A stretch of 64,000 nt of DNA from Brachyspira suanatina (GTDB taxonomy: Bacteria > Spirochaetota > Brachyspiria > Brachyspirales > Brachyspiraceae): NCBI RefSeq assembly GCF_001049755.1, contig NZ_CVLB01000002.1, forward strand, positions 419,743 through 483,742. Reading direction: 5' to 3'. The notes under the pieces are model-generated. The model worked only from the letters and a program-made list of their open reading frames with translations. It had not been told where the DNA came from and ran no database searches. Position 1 is the first letter of the stretch. Every line of letters starts with the position of its first letter. Shown one piece after another: positions 29,487-60,571 of the stretch. Made by a program: the position numbers and the translations under genes.

Positions 29487-30980
29487 ATGAGACACTTAAA
29501 ATTATTTACAGATTTACATTCAAATTTACATCATGAACAAATTCATGAATTAGAAAAATGGTATAATCATGCAAAAGAAATGCTTGATTTTTGGGCTGTG
29601 GTATATTATCCATACCATGTGGTAAAAACAGAAGGCGGAATGCCTGTAGAAACAATACATTCAGATGAAATAATAAAAAAAGACTGGGAGTATATACGTA
29701 ATTTTTTAAAAGAACATAACGATCCTAACTTCCCTGTATTTTTAGCATATGAATGGCAGGGTAATGGTGAGGACGGAGATCACAATGTATTTTTTCTAGA
29801 TGACGGCGAACCTATTTTTCCTTTAACATATAAGGAATTATGCGATCAGCTGCCTAAAACTGCTATAGCAATACCGCATCATGTTGGATACTTAAAAGGA
29901 TTCAGAGGCAAGAATTGGGATACTCATAATGAAGAAGTATCTCCTGTTGTAGAGATATTCTCATCTCATGGTTCTTCTGAAAGTGCATTTACAGATCTTC
30001 CTATGGTAAGACATATACATATGGGACCTAGAACAGGAGGCGGAACTGTATTTGACGGATTAAATAGAGGCTATAAATTTGGAATAATAGCTTCCGGAGA
30101 TAACCATGTAGTTTCTACAATGTATGAACATGGATTTGCATGCATAAAAGCAAAATCTAAATCAAAAAACGATATTTGGGAAGCTATAAAAAATAGAGAA
30201 GTTTATGCTGTTACATCTAGTAAAATATTATTAGATTATGATTATAAAGAAAATACTCATAATGTAGAAGTATATGCTTCAGATGCCGTATCAAGAATAG
30301 AGTTAATAAAAAATGGAAATGTACATCAAACTTATGTACATAACGGAACTTGGGAAGAAAAAGAATTAGGTGATACTGTAAAATTCAAATTTAAAATAGA
30401 ATTTGGCTGGGGACCAGATACAAAAATATTTGAAGATATAAGCAGTAAAGTATGGGACGTTGAACTTCAAACAAGCGGAAAAATAGTATCAGTTGAAAAA
30501 TGTTTCTCTACATTCGGACAGCATTTAGAATGGGATAATAAAAGCAATAAATGTAAATTCACTCTTACATCACATAAAAATACTCAATCCGGAAAATGGA
30601 TGGGACCTTCTCCTATTACAAATGAAGCAGTAATATTTGAAATAGAAGATAATATCAACTCTGATTTAATTTTAAATATAAACGGAAAAGAGTTTAAGAA
30701 AAAAATCTCTGACATACTTGCCAATACTGATTTAATAGTATTTTTGGACGAAGCTAAAAAACTTGTATTGGAACGTTACAATTTAAAAGAATTCTACAGA
30801 GGCGATCCTTTCTATCAAAATGCTTATAAAGTTCGTTTATTAAAAGGAGCACCTGAAATGGCTTATAAAGTTAATTGCTCTTTCAAAACAGATAAAACGA
30901 ATATCGGAGATTATTATTTAGTAAAAGTAATTCAAAGAGATGGAGCCGTTGCTTGGTCATCTCCTATTTGGATATCTTAA
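29487..30980 (+). CDS. PHP-like metal-dependent hydrolase (DUF3604-type)
   Basis: This 497-residue protein starts directly with the PHP-type motif TDLHSN. Further metal-ligand candidates follow: FLAYEWQGNGEDGDHN, AIPHHVGY, EIFSSHGSSE and IIASGDNHV. The order fits the PHP/DUF3604 group of phosphoesterase-like hydrolases. The C-terminal 220 residues look like beta-sandwich. No signal peptide is present, so it is cytoplasmic. It is the first gene of an operon with a PTS transporter and a sulfatase, which suggests a carbohydrate-ester substrate. The exact reaction is unknown. Confidence 0.7.
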   Translation: MRHLKLFTDLHSNLHHEQIHELEKWYNHAKEMLDFWAVVYYPYHVVKTEGGMPVETIHSDEIIKKDWEYIRNFLKEHNDPNFPVFLAYEWQGNGEDGDHNVFFLDDGEPIFPLTYKELCDQLPKTAIAIPHHVGYLKGFRGKNWDTHNEEVSPVVEIFSSHGSSESAFTDLPMVRHIHMGPRTGGGTVFDGLNRGYKFGIIASGDNHVVSTMYEHGFACIKAKSKSKNDIWEAIKNREVYAVTSSKILLDYDYKENTHNVEVYASDAVSRIELIKNGNVHQTYVHNGTWEEKELGDTVKFKFKIEFGWGPDTKIFEDISSKVWDVELQTSGKIVSVEKCFSTFGQHLEWDNKSNKCKFTLTSHKNTQSGKWMGPSPITNEAVIFEIEDNINSDLILNINGKEFKKKISDILANTDLIVFLDEAKKLVLERYNLKEFYRGDPFYQNAYKVRLLKGAPEMAYKVNCSFKTDKTNIGDYYLVKVIQRDGAVAWSSPIWIS

Positions 30981-56308: not shown

Positions 56309-57793
56309 ATGGATTATAATGAAAAGTTATATAATGTATTTTCCAGCGGAGAGCAGAGATTAGAATCATGGATGGCTGCTGTATTTACTAAAGAATATGA
56401 TCATAATATGACAATTGAAGAATTCAGAGATATATTATCACAATCAGATGAATATATGGTATTAGAATTCAATGAAATAGAAGAATCAAAATTTATAAGA
56501 GATAAATCTAAATGGGAAGCATCTATTAAACTTCAGTATTTACCTATGGTTATGGATGAAGACGAGCATTCTTGCGGATGCGGACATGATGAAGGTGGAT
56601 GTTGCCAAGATGATGAAGAGCATTCCTGTGGCTGCGGACATAATCATGATGATGAAGAACATTCCTGCAGATGTGGGCATAATCATGACGATGAGGAAGA
56701 AAATAATGATGAACTTAATTTTTATGTAGCTTTAGTTGATGCTTCAAGCGTTACTGAAAATGTTCCTGAAATATTTTCTGTAAACACTGTAAGGGAAGAT
56801 GATTATAAAGAAGCATGTCAATGTAAATATGCTGTACATGTATCTACAATATTTGATAATCATCCGCTTACTGACTATCAAAGACAATTAAAATTATTAG
56901 ACAGTTTAGTTCCTGAATGTTCTATATTTTTAGATATGTCATGCTATACAGCACATTCAGGAGATTGGCTTTCTTATACTTCAACTTTCGCTTTACCGCC
57001 TTCTTTGGATTATCTATACACTATACATGCGGTTTATGATGATGATAAAGACCCTAACAAAGTTGAATATTGGTTCCATACTCATGGACTTTACAGAGTC
57101 GGTTCTATAGAATTAGAGATAGTAGGCGTTGAAGATTCAAATGCTGCTTATGGAGCATTGCTTAATACTTGTGCAAAAATGTTTATAGAGAGAGGAGTGC
57201 CTGAAGCCGGATTTAAATTTAATCCCGCATATAACACTTATGTATGCTGGTTCCCTTGGCAGGAGGCTTTGAAGAAATTAAATATTGCCGATGATGTTAC
57301 AGGAAGTGCAAAAGACAGAAATGACGGAGTACATAATACGCCTTCCGGTATTTTACTTGCTGTAGATGCTGATGGTAATTATCATTCTCTTGATTATTAT
57401 AAAAATGAGCTTACAGATAACCCTATGTTTATGATGAGTTATTTTGAAACTTCTCTTATGAGAGAGGCTGCTTTTGAAAAATTAGAGTATTTCTTAGAAT
57501 TATTAAATAAAAATAAAGGTGATGATAAAACTTCTTTCTTAGTAAAATTAGGATACGGCGAAACAGAAGAAAACCCTAATGATTTAGAGCATTTATGGTT
57601 TGATGTTCATGACTTCACTAATGGCGGATATTTTGATGCTACTTTAATAAATGAACCTTATAAAGATTTAGGTATGCATGAAGGCGACAGAGGAATGCAT
57701 AGCATAGAAAGGCTTACAGATTGGGAAATATATTCAGAAGAAAATAACTATAATTCAAGAAATATATATTTATTATTTCAAGAAGAAGAGTAA
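56309..57793 (+). CDS. DUF4026 protein with Cys/His-rich insertion
   Basis: The 494-residue protein has the DUF4026 body, with SIFLDMSCYTAHSGDWLSY and VEYWFHTHGLYRVGSIELE. Residues about 84-133 contain an acidic insertion with three repeats of EHSCGCGH or EHSCRCGH and two of HNHDDEE, clearly metal-binding and encoded by near-duplicate DNA segments. The rest of the domain family has no known function. An AGAGG ribosome site precedes the ATG. Confidence 0.82.
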   Translation: MDYNEKLYNVFSSGEQRLESWMAAVFTKEYDHNMTIEEFRDILSQSDEYMVLEFNEIEESKFIRDKSKWEASIKLQYLPMVMDEDEHSCGCGHDEGGCCQDDEEHSCGCGHNHDDEEHSCRCGHNHDDEEENNDELNFYVALVDASSVTENVPEIFSVNTVREDDYKEACQCKYAVHVSTIFDNHPLTDYQRQLKLLDSLVPECSIFLDMSCYTAHSGDWLSYTSTFALPPSLDYLYTIHAVYDDDKDPNKVEYWFHTHGLYRVGSIELEIVGVEDSNAAYGALLNTCAKMFIERGVPEAGFKFNPAYNTYVCWFPWQEALKKLNIADDVTGSAKDRNDGVHNTPSGILLAVDADGNYHSLDYYKNELTDNPMFMMSYFETSLMREAAFEKLEYFLELLNKNKGDDKTSFLVKLGYGETEENPNDLEHLWFDVHDFTNGGYFDATLINEPYKDLGMHEGDRGMHSIERLTDWEIYSEENNYNSRNIYLLFQEEE

Positions 57794-59121: not shown

Positions 59122-59249
59122 TTGACAGCAAAATACTTTTTAATATAATAAATATATGAAACTTGTTATTGAATTAAGCTCCGGCAATATTTAATCATTT
59201 TATTGTTTGGAGCATGCTAAAAAAACAGTATGCTATAGTTTTTTATAGT
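59122..59249 (+). promoter_or_regulatory. Promoter and attenuator-like leader of the second MATE gene
   Basis: TTGACA (59122) and TATAAT (59144) are spaced by 16 bases. Two hairpins compete in the leader. The first is GCTCCGGCAAT (59178-59188) with ATTGTTTGGAGC (59202-59213). The second is AGCATGCT (59211-59218) with AGTATGCT (59227-59234), followed by a T6 tract. They share bases 59211-59213, so they cannot form fully together. This is the layout of a transcription attenuator. Confidence 0.6.
59156..59194 (+). CDS. Candidate 12-residue leader peptide
   Basis: The ORF MKLVIELSSGNI begins seven bases after the TATAAT box, at the expected transcription start, and ends in the loop of the first hairpin. 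A ribosome on it would cover the 5' arm of that hairpin and free the terminator stem. It is too short to support by composition and is inferred from the layout. Confidence 0.4.
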   Translation: MKLVIELSSGNI

Positions 59250-59299
59250 TATTAAAAATTATAAAATTTTTAATATGTTTTTAATTCAAGGAAAGTTTC

Positions 59300-60571
59300 A
59301 TGTATTTAATAAAATTTTCATTTATTTTATTCATTTCAAATATATTACAATACTTATATAGTATTATAGATATAATATTTATTTCACATTTAGTTGGCGA
59401 TAATGGCGTTATAGCATTAGGCAACTGTGCTTCTATAATGTTTATAATAACTTCTGTATCTTTAGGCTTATCAATAGGCGGTTCTGTTATAATATCAAAA
59501 TATAAAGGGGCTGATAATAATATAAAATATAAACAAGCTATAGGAAGTTTATTATTTTTATCTTCATCATTGGCTTTTATAATTTCAATAATAGGTTTAA
59601 TATTCTCAAAGCATATATTATCATTTATGAATATACCTAAAGAATCATTTAACTATGCTTATGATTATATAAAAATAATTTTTTCAGGAACATTCTTTAT
59701 ACTTATATATTCTTCTTTATCTTCTGTGATAAAATCAAGCGGAAGAGAAAAAGCCTCATTATATTTTATTATAATAGCTGCATTAGTTAATTTTTTATTA
59801 AACTTTTTGTTTTGTTATATATTAAAATTATCTGTAAAAGGTGCTGCATTAGCTACCGTAATATCTCAGGCTTTTTCATTTTTATTATCATTATATTATA
59901 CAAGAAAATTATTAAGTTTTAATTTTGATATTAAAATAATAAAAGAGTTATTATTTATTTCTTTACCTTGTATATTTCAAATGCTTATAATAAATATATC
60001 ATATTTTTTTGTTAATATAATGATGAATAAATATGACGCTCTTACTGGATTCACAATAGGCTTAAAAATAAATACTTTTATAGGTATGATTTCTTGGTCT
60101 ATAGGAGAAGCTTTAAGTATAATTGTTTCAAAGAGTACAGGAGAAAAAGATTATATAAAAATAAAAAGCACAGTTAAATTTGCTATATTCTTCAATATTA
60201 CCGCTACAGTAACAGCAATAATATTTATACATCTATTCGTTAAAAATATAATCAGCATTTTCTACAGCGGGGATGAAAAAGTTATCAATGATATAATATT
60301 TTATTTAAAAATATGTGCTTCATTTAATGGCATTACTTATGCTTTGATGTATATATTAGATAGTTTTTTGATAGGCATTCAAAAGTCATATTTAGCTTTT
60401 ATTAATTCATTTATAGATTCTATAATATTTAAAGTGATAATATCAAAAATATTAGAAATACATATAGGCTATTTAGGAATATATATTTCTATGGTTATAT
60501 CAAGTATTATTCCTGCTTTAATAGGCATTATTTATTTATGCATCTTTATTAAAAAATATATAAATAATTGA
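59300..60571 (+). CDS. MATE-family efflux transporter
   Basis: A 423-residue multidrug/toxin exporter with about twelve hydrophobic segments. It starts YLIKFSFILFISNILQYLY and has VIALGNCASIMFIITSVSLGLSIGGSV and KSTGEKDY in the second half-repeat. It is unrelated in detail to the tail-bearing MATE at 44.3 kb. AAGGAAA is the ribosome site. Its 150-base leader carries paired hairpins, so its expression is probably conditional. The exported compound is unknown. Confidence 0.87.
   Translation: MYLIKFSFILFISNILQYLYSIIDIIFISHLVGDNGVIALGNCASIMFIITSVSLGLSIGGSVIISKYKGADNNIKYKQAIGSLLFLSSSLAFIISIIGLIFSKHILSFMNIPKESFNYAYDYIKIIFSGTFFILIYSSLSSVIKSSGREKASLYFIIIAALVNFLLNFLFCYILKLSVKGAALATVISQAFSFLLSLYYTRKLLSFNFDIKIIKELLFISLPCIFQMLIINISYFFVNIMMNKYDALTGFTIGLKINTFIGMISWSIGEALSIIVSKSTGEKDYIKIKSTVKFAIFFNITATVTAIIFIHLFVKNIISIFYSGDEKVINDIIFYLKICASFNGITYALMYILDSFLIGIQKSYLAFINSFIDSIIFKVIISKILEIHIGYLGIYISMVISSIIPALIGIIYLCIFIKKYINN

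Follow-up and report, generated by a model that had tools for sequence, protein, structure and literature searches.

How is a predicted exporter of Brachyspira suanatina controlled when its gene follows a perfect promoter, a very short open reading frame (ORF) and a stretch of RNA that folds back on the start of the gene itself? The locus lies in a 64,000-nt stretch of DNA that was analysed as a whole (the window); its promoter, leader and exporter gene are all on the + strand. The gene (59300-60571) encodes a predicted MATE-family exporter of 423 amino acids, with matches to Pfam MatE (4.5e-41, 140.7 bits, cut-off 24.9) and NCBIfam TIGR00797 (172.9 bits, cut-off 147.4); the nearest solved chain by E-value is BH2163 (2.1e-25). 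The Shine-Dalgarno (SD) sequence of the gene, AAGGA, is located at 59288-59292, 7 nt ahead of the ATG. At 56309-57793 the window encodes a DUF4026/DUF2314 protein with an inserted Cys- and His-rich repeat (EEHSCGCGHNHDD) that is metal-binding in appearance.

The promoter, TTGACA-16-TATAAT (59122-59149), matches the sigma-70-type consensus at 12 of 12 positions, in agreement with a preliminary description of the region, and is the sole perfect promoter of this type between 57500 and 61500. TTGACA-type promoters are found at the equivalent position in relatives. Transcription is predicted to start 6 nt past the -10 box, at 59156, which is the A of a 5'-terminal AUG.

Conservation and fold of the leader

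The leader is a real and conserved element. Of 26 Brachyspira genomes 17 have it, in a total of 19 copies, each ahead of the same MATE gene or its degraded remains; leader and gene thus co-occur. Beyond these MATE leaders, a covariance model of the leader found nothing in the 26 genomes of the genus and nothing in 31 genomes of the order, and a scan for the 5' motif across 84,980 species (GTDB-based collection) gave 11 matches, all of them in Brachyspira. Rfam 15 yielded no match at the gathering score and none up to an E-value of 5, and no description of such a Brachyspira leader was found in the literature. The MATE gene is broken (by stops or frameshifts, or largely lost) at 6 of the 19 loci (L004, L005, L007, L009, L017 and L028). 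The leader beside these broken genes is mostly intact, and is itself decaying at L017 and L028.

From 59156 to the MATE start codon at 59300 (146 nt), the leader forms one closed structure in the minimum free energy (MFE) fold. The MFE of a 150-nt fold is -41.7 kcal/mol, compared with -21.1 +/- 3.3 kcal/mol for shuffled sequences (z = -6.2), and none of 200 shuffles was as good. The structure is closed by a helix, P1, in which a 5' arm at 59156-59177 (59156-59164 and 59169-59177, interrupted by the internal loop GUUA) pairs with a 3' arm at 59281-59301 that lies over the SD and the start codon. Nucleotides 1-9 of the predicted transcript, AUGAAACUU (59156-59164), are perfectly paired with AAGUUUCAU (59293-59301) across the MATE start codon, and nucleotides 14-22, UUGAAUUAA (59169-59177), are paired with UUAAUUCAA (59281-59289), which overlaps or adjoins the SD; the GGA of the SD is located in the internal loop. 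This is the MFE pairing in all 19 copies, and in silico the probability of P1 is 1.00 in each of them, with the flanks of the SD and the AUG covered.

When the upstream leader of three species was shuffled 2000 times with its dinucleotides preserved, complementarity of this extent to the region from SD to AUG arose only 1, 4 and 0 times. Among 57 gene starts in the window, that of the MATE gene has the strongest SD-masking upstream helix, at -18.5 kcal/mol as a duplex (mean -10.2 +/- 2.5; runner-up -15.1). Nucleotides 1-19 are identical in 18 of the 19 copies, the remaining copy having a single A-to-G change. Where the gene is intact (13 copies), the two ends of the leader are its longest invariant runs, at 19 and 16 nt, while the longest such run in the MATE coding sequence is 12 nt; the 3' arm of P1, GGAAAGTTTCATGTAT, is invariant in these 13 copies. 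Changes in the core of P1 are confined to two copies with a broken gene, L017 (in genome G016) and L028 (the second copy in G005). Conservation also extends to hairpin P2, the loop of hairpin P3 and the internal loop GUUA. None of the 15 pairs of P1 shows a two-sided change, whereas some in P3 do, and P1 is therefore backed by complementarity and invariance, not by covariation. That the invariance goes beyond what pairing needs suggests a role for the 5' sequence as such, as would be expected of codons.

Two explanations at the level of DNA were considered and rejected. The two arms might be the terminal inverted repeats of a mobile element, but there are at most two copies per genome, always ahead of the MATE gene or its remains, and P2 is maintained by G-U pairs that are possible in the sense RNA alone. 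A DNA operator was dropped on the same grounds, P2 being kept by G-U pairs specific to the sense RNA.

Since GGA of the SD is in the internal loop of P1, as in some RNA thermometers, the leader might be one of these, with P1 melting at the temperature of the host and freeing an SD that is already partly open. In the folding model, however, P1 stays closed up to 65 C in each of four species tested, which makes this the least probable of the readings considered here.

Internal hairpins and termination

Inside P1 are P2 (59178-59213), a local hairpin (59211-59234), P3 (59232-59249) and, in the MFE fold, an A/U-only hairpin (59250-59274). The first two, which share three bases, are the hairpins 1 and 2 of the preliminary description; both are part of a larger closed leader that it missed. 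The architecture downstream of P2 varies between clades. In the clade of the window, GCAUGCU pairs locally with AGUAUGC to form hairpin 2, while the partner of GCAUACUAAA in most of the more distant species is a distal strand of the UUUAGUAUGC type, the two forming a long-range hairpin (P4) that encloses P3. The A/U-only hairpin is likewise specific to the clade; its place is taken in more distant relatives by the distal arm of P4.

The paired fraction of cells is 98.2% in the clean alignment A3, which omits a spurious reverse-strand row (L002 +); shuffles give 96.6 +/- 0.3% and slid versions 37-52%. Two-sided changes are present in 10 cells, against 2.7 +/- 1.3 in shuffles, but only 3 pairs are involved, a number reached by 165 of 500 shuffles, so that covariation is modest. 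Such as it is, it favours P3, where two pairs have changed from AU to GC on both sides, and one pair of P2, a hairpin that has 97.8% of its cells paired, a two-sided change at that one pair and one-sided changes at five others.

The preliminary description had proposed that the two hairpins are exclusive alternatives in a transcriptional attenuator: translation of a 12-codon ORF to its stop would prevent hairpin 1, hairpin 2 would then form as a terminator, and transcription would stop. Several of its elements are present in the window, where the 12 codons are found at 59156-59194 and hairpin 2 is directly followed by T6. A U-rich patch comes after the separate, large-looped hairpin P4 in several relatives, where termination may occur. 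Hairpin 2, however, is terminator-like in only 7 of the 19 copies, those of the window and of six close relatives. The window alone has T6; in the other copies this stretch, TTCTTT or a variant of it, forms the conserved loop and the 3' arm of P3 (GUUCUUU in the loop region of relatives, GUUUUUU, with its U6, in the window). Nor do the hairpins exclude one another, as both are present in the MFE fold, each giving up a few base pairs. The first 90 nt, which contain both, fold no better than shuffles (z = -1.1), and the 2 terminator-like sites in 4 kb, hairpin 2 included, are not unusual beside 1.1 +/- 1.1 in shuffles. Together with the variable end of the ORF, these observations indicate that the terminator switch is not the conserved function. 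What relatives have kept is hairpin 1 (P2) and the first six codons of the ORF; the terminator form of hairpin 2 and the length of 12 codons are limited to a clade or variable. Because it also leaves the P1 helix unexplained, we regard transcriptional attenuation as very improbable.

The conserved constraint is instead that the first codons of the ORF are paired with the ribosome-binding site of the MATE gene, which points to control of translation initiation, the most likely level of action, and not to termination. The P3 loop UUCUUU of relatives (about 59238-59245 in the window) is complementary to the SD stretch AAGGAA with one G-U pair; a contact between this loop and the SD, or a second mode of SD masking, is possible.

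Probable leaderless starts and the proposed trigger of release

The ORF that begins at the predicted transcription start, MKLVIELSSGNI (12 codons in the window), is conserved only in its first part, MKLVIE. Codons 1-6 are present in all 19 copies, one of which has GUG in place of AUG. A stop follows at codon 7 in 10 copies, leaving an ORF of six codons, and after codon 12 or 13 in the other 9. With its AUG at the predicted +1 and no SD or other ribosome-binding site upstream in the window sequence, this mini-ORF would be leaderless. It overlaps the masking structure; its AUG and the next five codons are conserved and its end is not, and pairing could also explain the conservation. Since the CAU that overlaps the MATE start codon requires a 5' AUG as its partner, the mini-ORF might be incidental. 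It may still matter for control.

Leaderless starts appear to form a sizeable class in Brachyspira, judging from the position of ATGs behind promoters. In two genomes of the genus the spacing between a perfect promoter and the ATG peaks at 6 nt (15 of 35 and 13 of 25), and in the genome of the window it peaks at 6-7 nt (24 of 46). There, 11 of 20 ATGs with a spacing of 6-7 nt begin ORFs of at least 90 amino acids without an SD, compared with 3 of the 20 that have another spacing (Fisher p = 0.02). The putative class would thus have an ATG 6-7 nt past a perfect or near-perfect sigma-70 promoter, no SD and a long ORF, and the sign that there are many such genes is useful in itself. An example of this type in the window has its ATG near 29487. 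In one relative (G001), a near-identical promoter, TTGACAAATAAAATTATTCTGTTATAATATTCTTATG, recurs many times with an ATG about 6 nt past the -10 box, perhaps as part of a gene family or mobile element. In the genome of the window (G000), perfect or near-perfect promoters at L106 and L110 (G000:C1:1623849-1624806 and 1808156-1809113) have short tandem repeats, of AAGCTCC or AGTCTAC units, directly downstream.

Measured from the -10 box, the AUG of the mini-ORF lies at a distance of 6 nt in 16 of the 19 copies and of 7 nt in the other 3. A leaderless start needs this spacing, while a mere helix would tolerate a 5' overhang, and we count it in favour of the ribosome as the trigger. The same spacing bears on the possibility that the leader is a constitutive structure, which keeps expression low, shields the 5' end of the mRNA or opens under the action of an RNA-binding protein, neither a small molecule nor a ribosome being the signal. 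A strong promoter combined with strong masking is what this would look like, and leader ends conserved beyond the needs of pairing are also compatible with it. Yet a perfect promoter followed by permanent repression would be wasteful, and both the leaderless spacing and the internal domain would be conserved without need; this reading seems unlikely to us.

Computed intermediate folds give an indication of when P1 can close. The average unpaired fraction of nucleotides 1-12 is 65-86% while the leader grows to about 95% of its length and falls to 25% at the end, which would allow a time window for ribosome loading. In these folds the 5' arm has no consistent alternative partner. With nucleotides 1-17 masked, as they would be by a ribosome at the AUG, the region from SD to AUG is freed in silico at a mean cost of 3.5 instead of 9.1 kcal/mol, which we count in favour of release by a ribosome. 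As P1 is too stable to melt and its 5' arm lacks a consistent competitor, the ribosome is the best candidate for the trigger.

The main rival is a riboswitch-like leader, in which the domain enclosed by P1 (P2, P3 and P4) has as its ligand a small molecule or ion that the MATE protein exports, binding of which shifts the equilibrium between P1 and the SD, the 5' AUG being merely the pairing partner of the start codon. The enclosed domain is indeed conserved in sequence, particularly in P2 and the P3 loop, with 98% of cells paired and some two-sided changes, and MATE genes elsewhere are under the control of the guanidine-IV riboswitch (PMC7736828). With no Rfam match even at an E-value of 5, it would have to be a new class. 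Its architecture past P2 depends on the clade, which is unusual in an aptamer, and the leader is found ahead of one gene family in one genus only; the ligand is hypothetical. Both the great stability of P1 and the want of another partner for the 5' arm also weigh against such a switch, which we consider doubtful.

We therefore suggest, at a probability of a little under one half, that the leader represses translation of the MATE gene in cis, and that ribosomes at its own 5' end probably lift this repression. Transcription would begin at the A of the 5'-terminal AUG, so that the first 22 nt of the RNA are those which, by sequence, folding and conservation, are complementary to the SD and start-codon region of the MATE gene. 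The finished leader would close and block the MATE start. Until its last few bases are made, the 5' arm is computed to be largely free, and a ribosome might meanwhile load on the leaderless AUG and read AUG AAA CUU GUU AUU GAA. Normally it would finish at once and the helix would close. A ribosome stalled at the start or the first codons (e.g., by a ribosome-targeting drug) would cover the 5' arm, the helix would not form, and the exporter would be translated. Synthesis of the pump would thus probably depend on occupation of the first 19 nt, most likely by a stalled ribosome. This retains from the preliminary description the logic of an antibiotic-sensing attenuator, in that promoter, very short 5' ORF and RNA structure probably couple ribosome occupancy to MATE expression, and gives up its termination mechanism.

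Several points argue against release by ribosomes. The length and end of the mini-ORF are not conserved, and the domain of P2 and P3 is conserved beyond the apparent needs of a plain attenuator. Leaderless initiation is often weak, and both the translation of the mini-ORF and the transcription start are predictions. Ribosome-targeting drugs are moreover not the chief substrates of MATE pumps.

Relation to known attenuators and riboswitches

In translational attenuation of the kind proposed, the mini-ORF would directly be the strand that masks the start site of its target. Somewhat more tentatively than for the repressor as such, we propose that a leaderless mini-ORF with codons antisense to the downstream ribosome-binding site constitutes a minimal spirochaete translational attenuator, which senses stalled, 5'-loaded ribosomes and turns on an exporter. 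To our knowledge, no translational attenuator has previously been described in spirochaetes. If the proposal is true, this one would be unusually economical, sensor ORF and masking strand being the same 19 bases. Resistance of Brachyspira to pleuromutilins and to macrolides and lincosamides is a veterinary concern, and if ribosomes bring about the release, MATE expression is predicted to respond to drugs causing a stall at the start codon or close to it.

The cat translational attenuators (chloramphenicol) have a leader ORF and a masked SD that is released via a stalled ribosome. In the erm translational attenuators (macrolides), too, a leader ORF precedes an SD masked by RNA pairing, which a stalled ribosome releases (PMC5118997). 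The Brachyspira leader differs from both in that its ORF has no SD and only 6 conserved codons, in gene and phylum, and in its masking helix, which is long-range and surrounds a structured domain of about 100 nt.

Among characterized leaders with a MATE connection, the guanidine-IV riboswitch (GGAM-1) is located upstream of MATE-class genes among others and works by transcription termination (PMC7736828); the leader described here has no Rfam match, a different shape and no conserved terminator. A leaderless leader ORF and a link to efflux are both found in rnTrpL/peTrpL of S. meliloti, where the 5' end of the attenuator RNA is the AUG of the leader peptide and there is a connection with multidrug efflux (PMC7298713). 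That system, however, is a trp transcription attenuator whose peptide acts in trans on an efflux operon, whereas the logic suggested for Brachyspira would operate in cis on the exporter's own start.

The same logic as proposed here, with a short upstream ORF and a masked ribosome-binding site of the target, is found in toiL/topAI of E. coli. There, a leader structure hides the ribosome-binding site of topAI and is opened by ribosomes that several drugs stall on the toiL ORF; tetracycline, for example, stalls them at the start codon of this ORF (PMC12121999). The target in that case is a toxin-antitoxin operon and Rho-dependent termination is involved (PMC12121999). The Brachyspira leader precedes a MATE exporter gene; its ORF is putatively leaderless, the masking would be done by the codons of this ORF themselves, and induction is a prediction.
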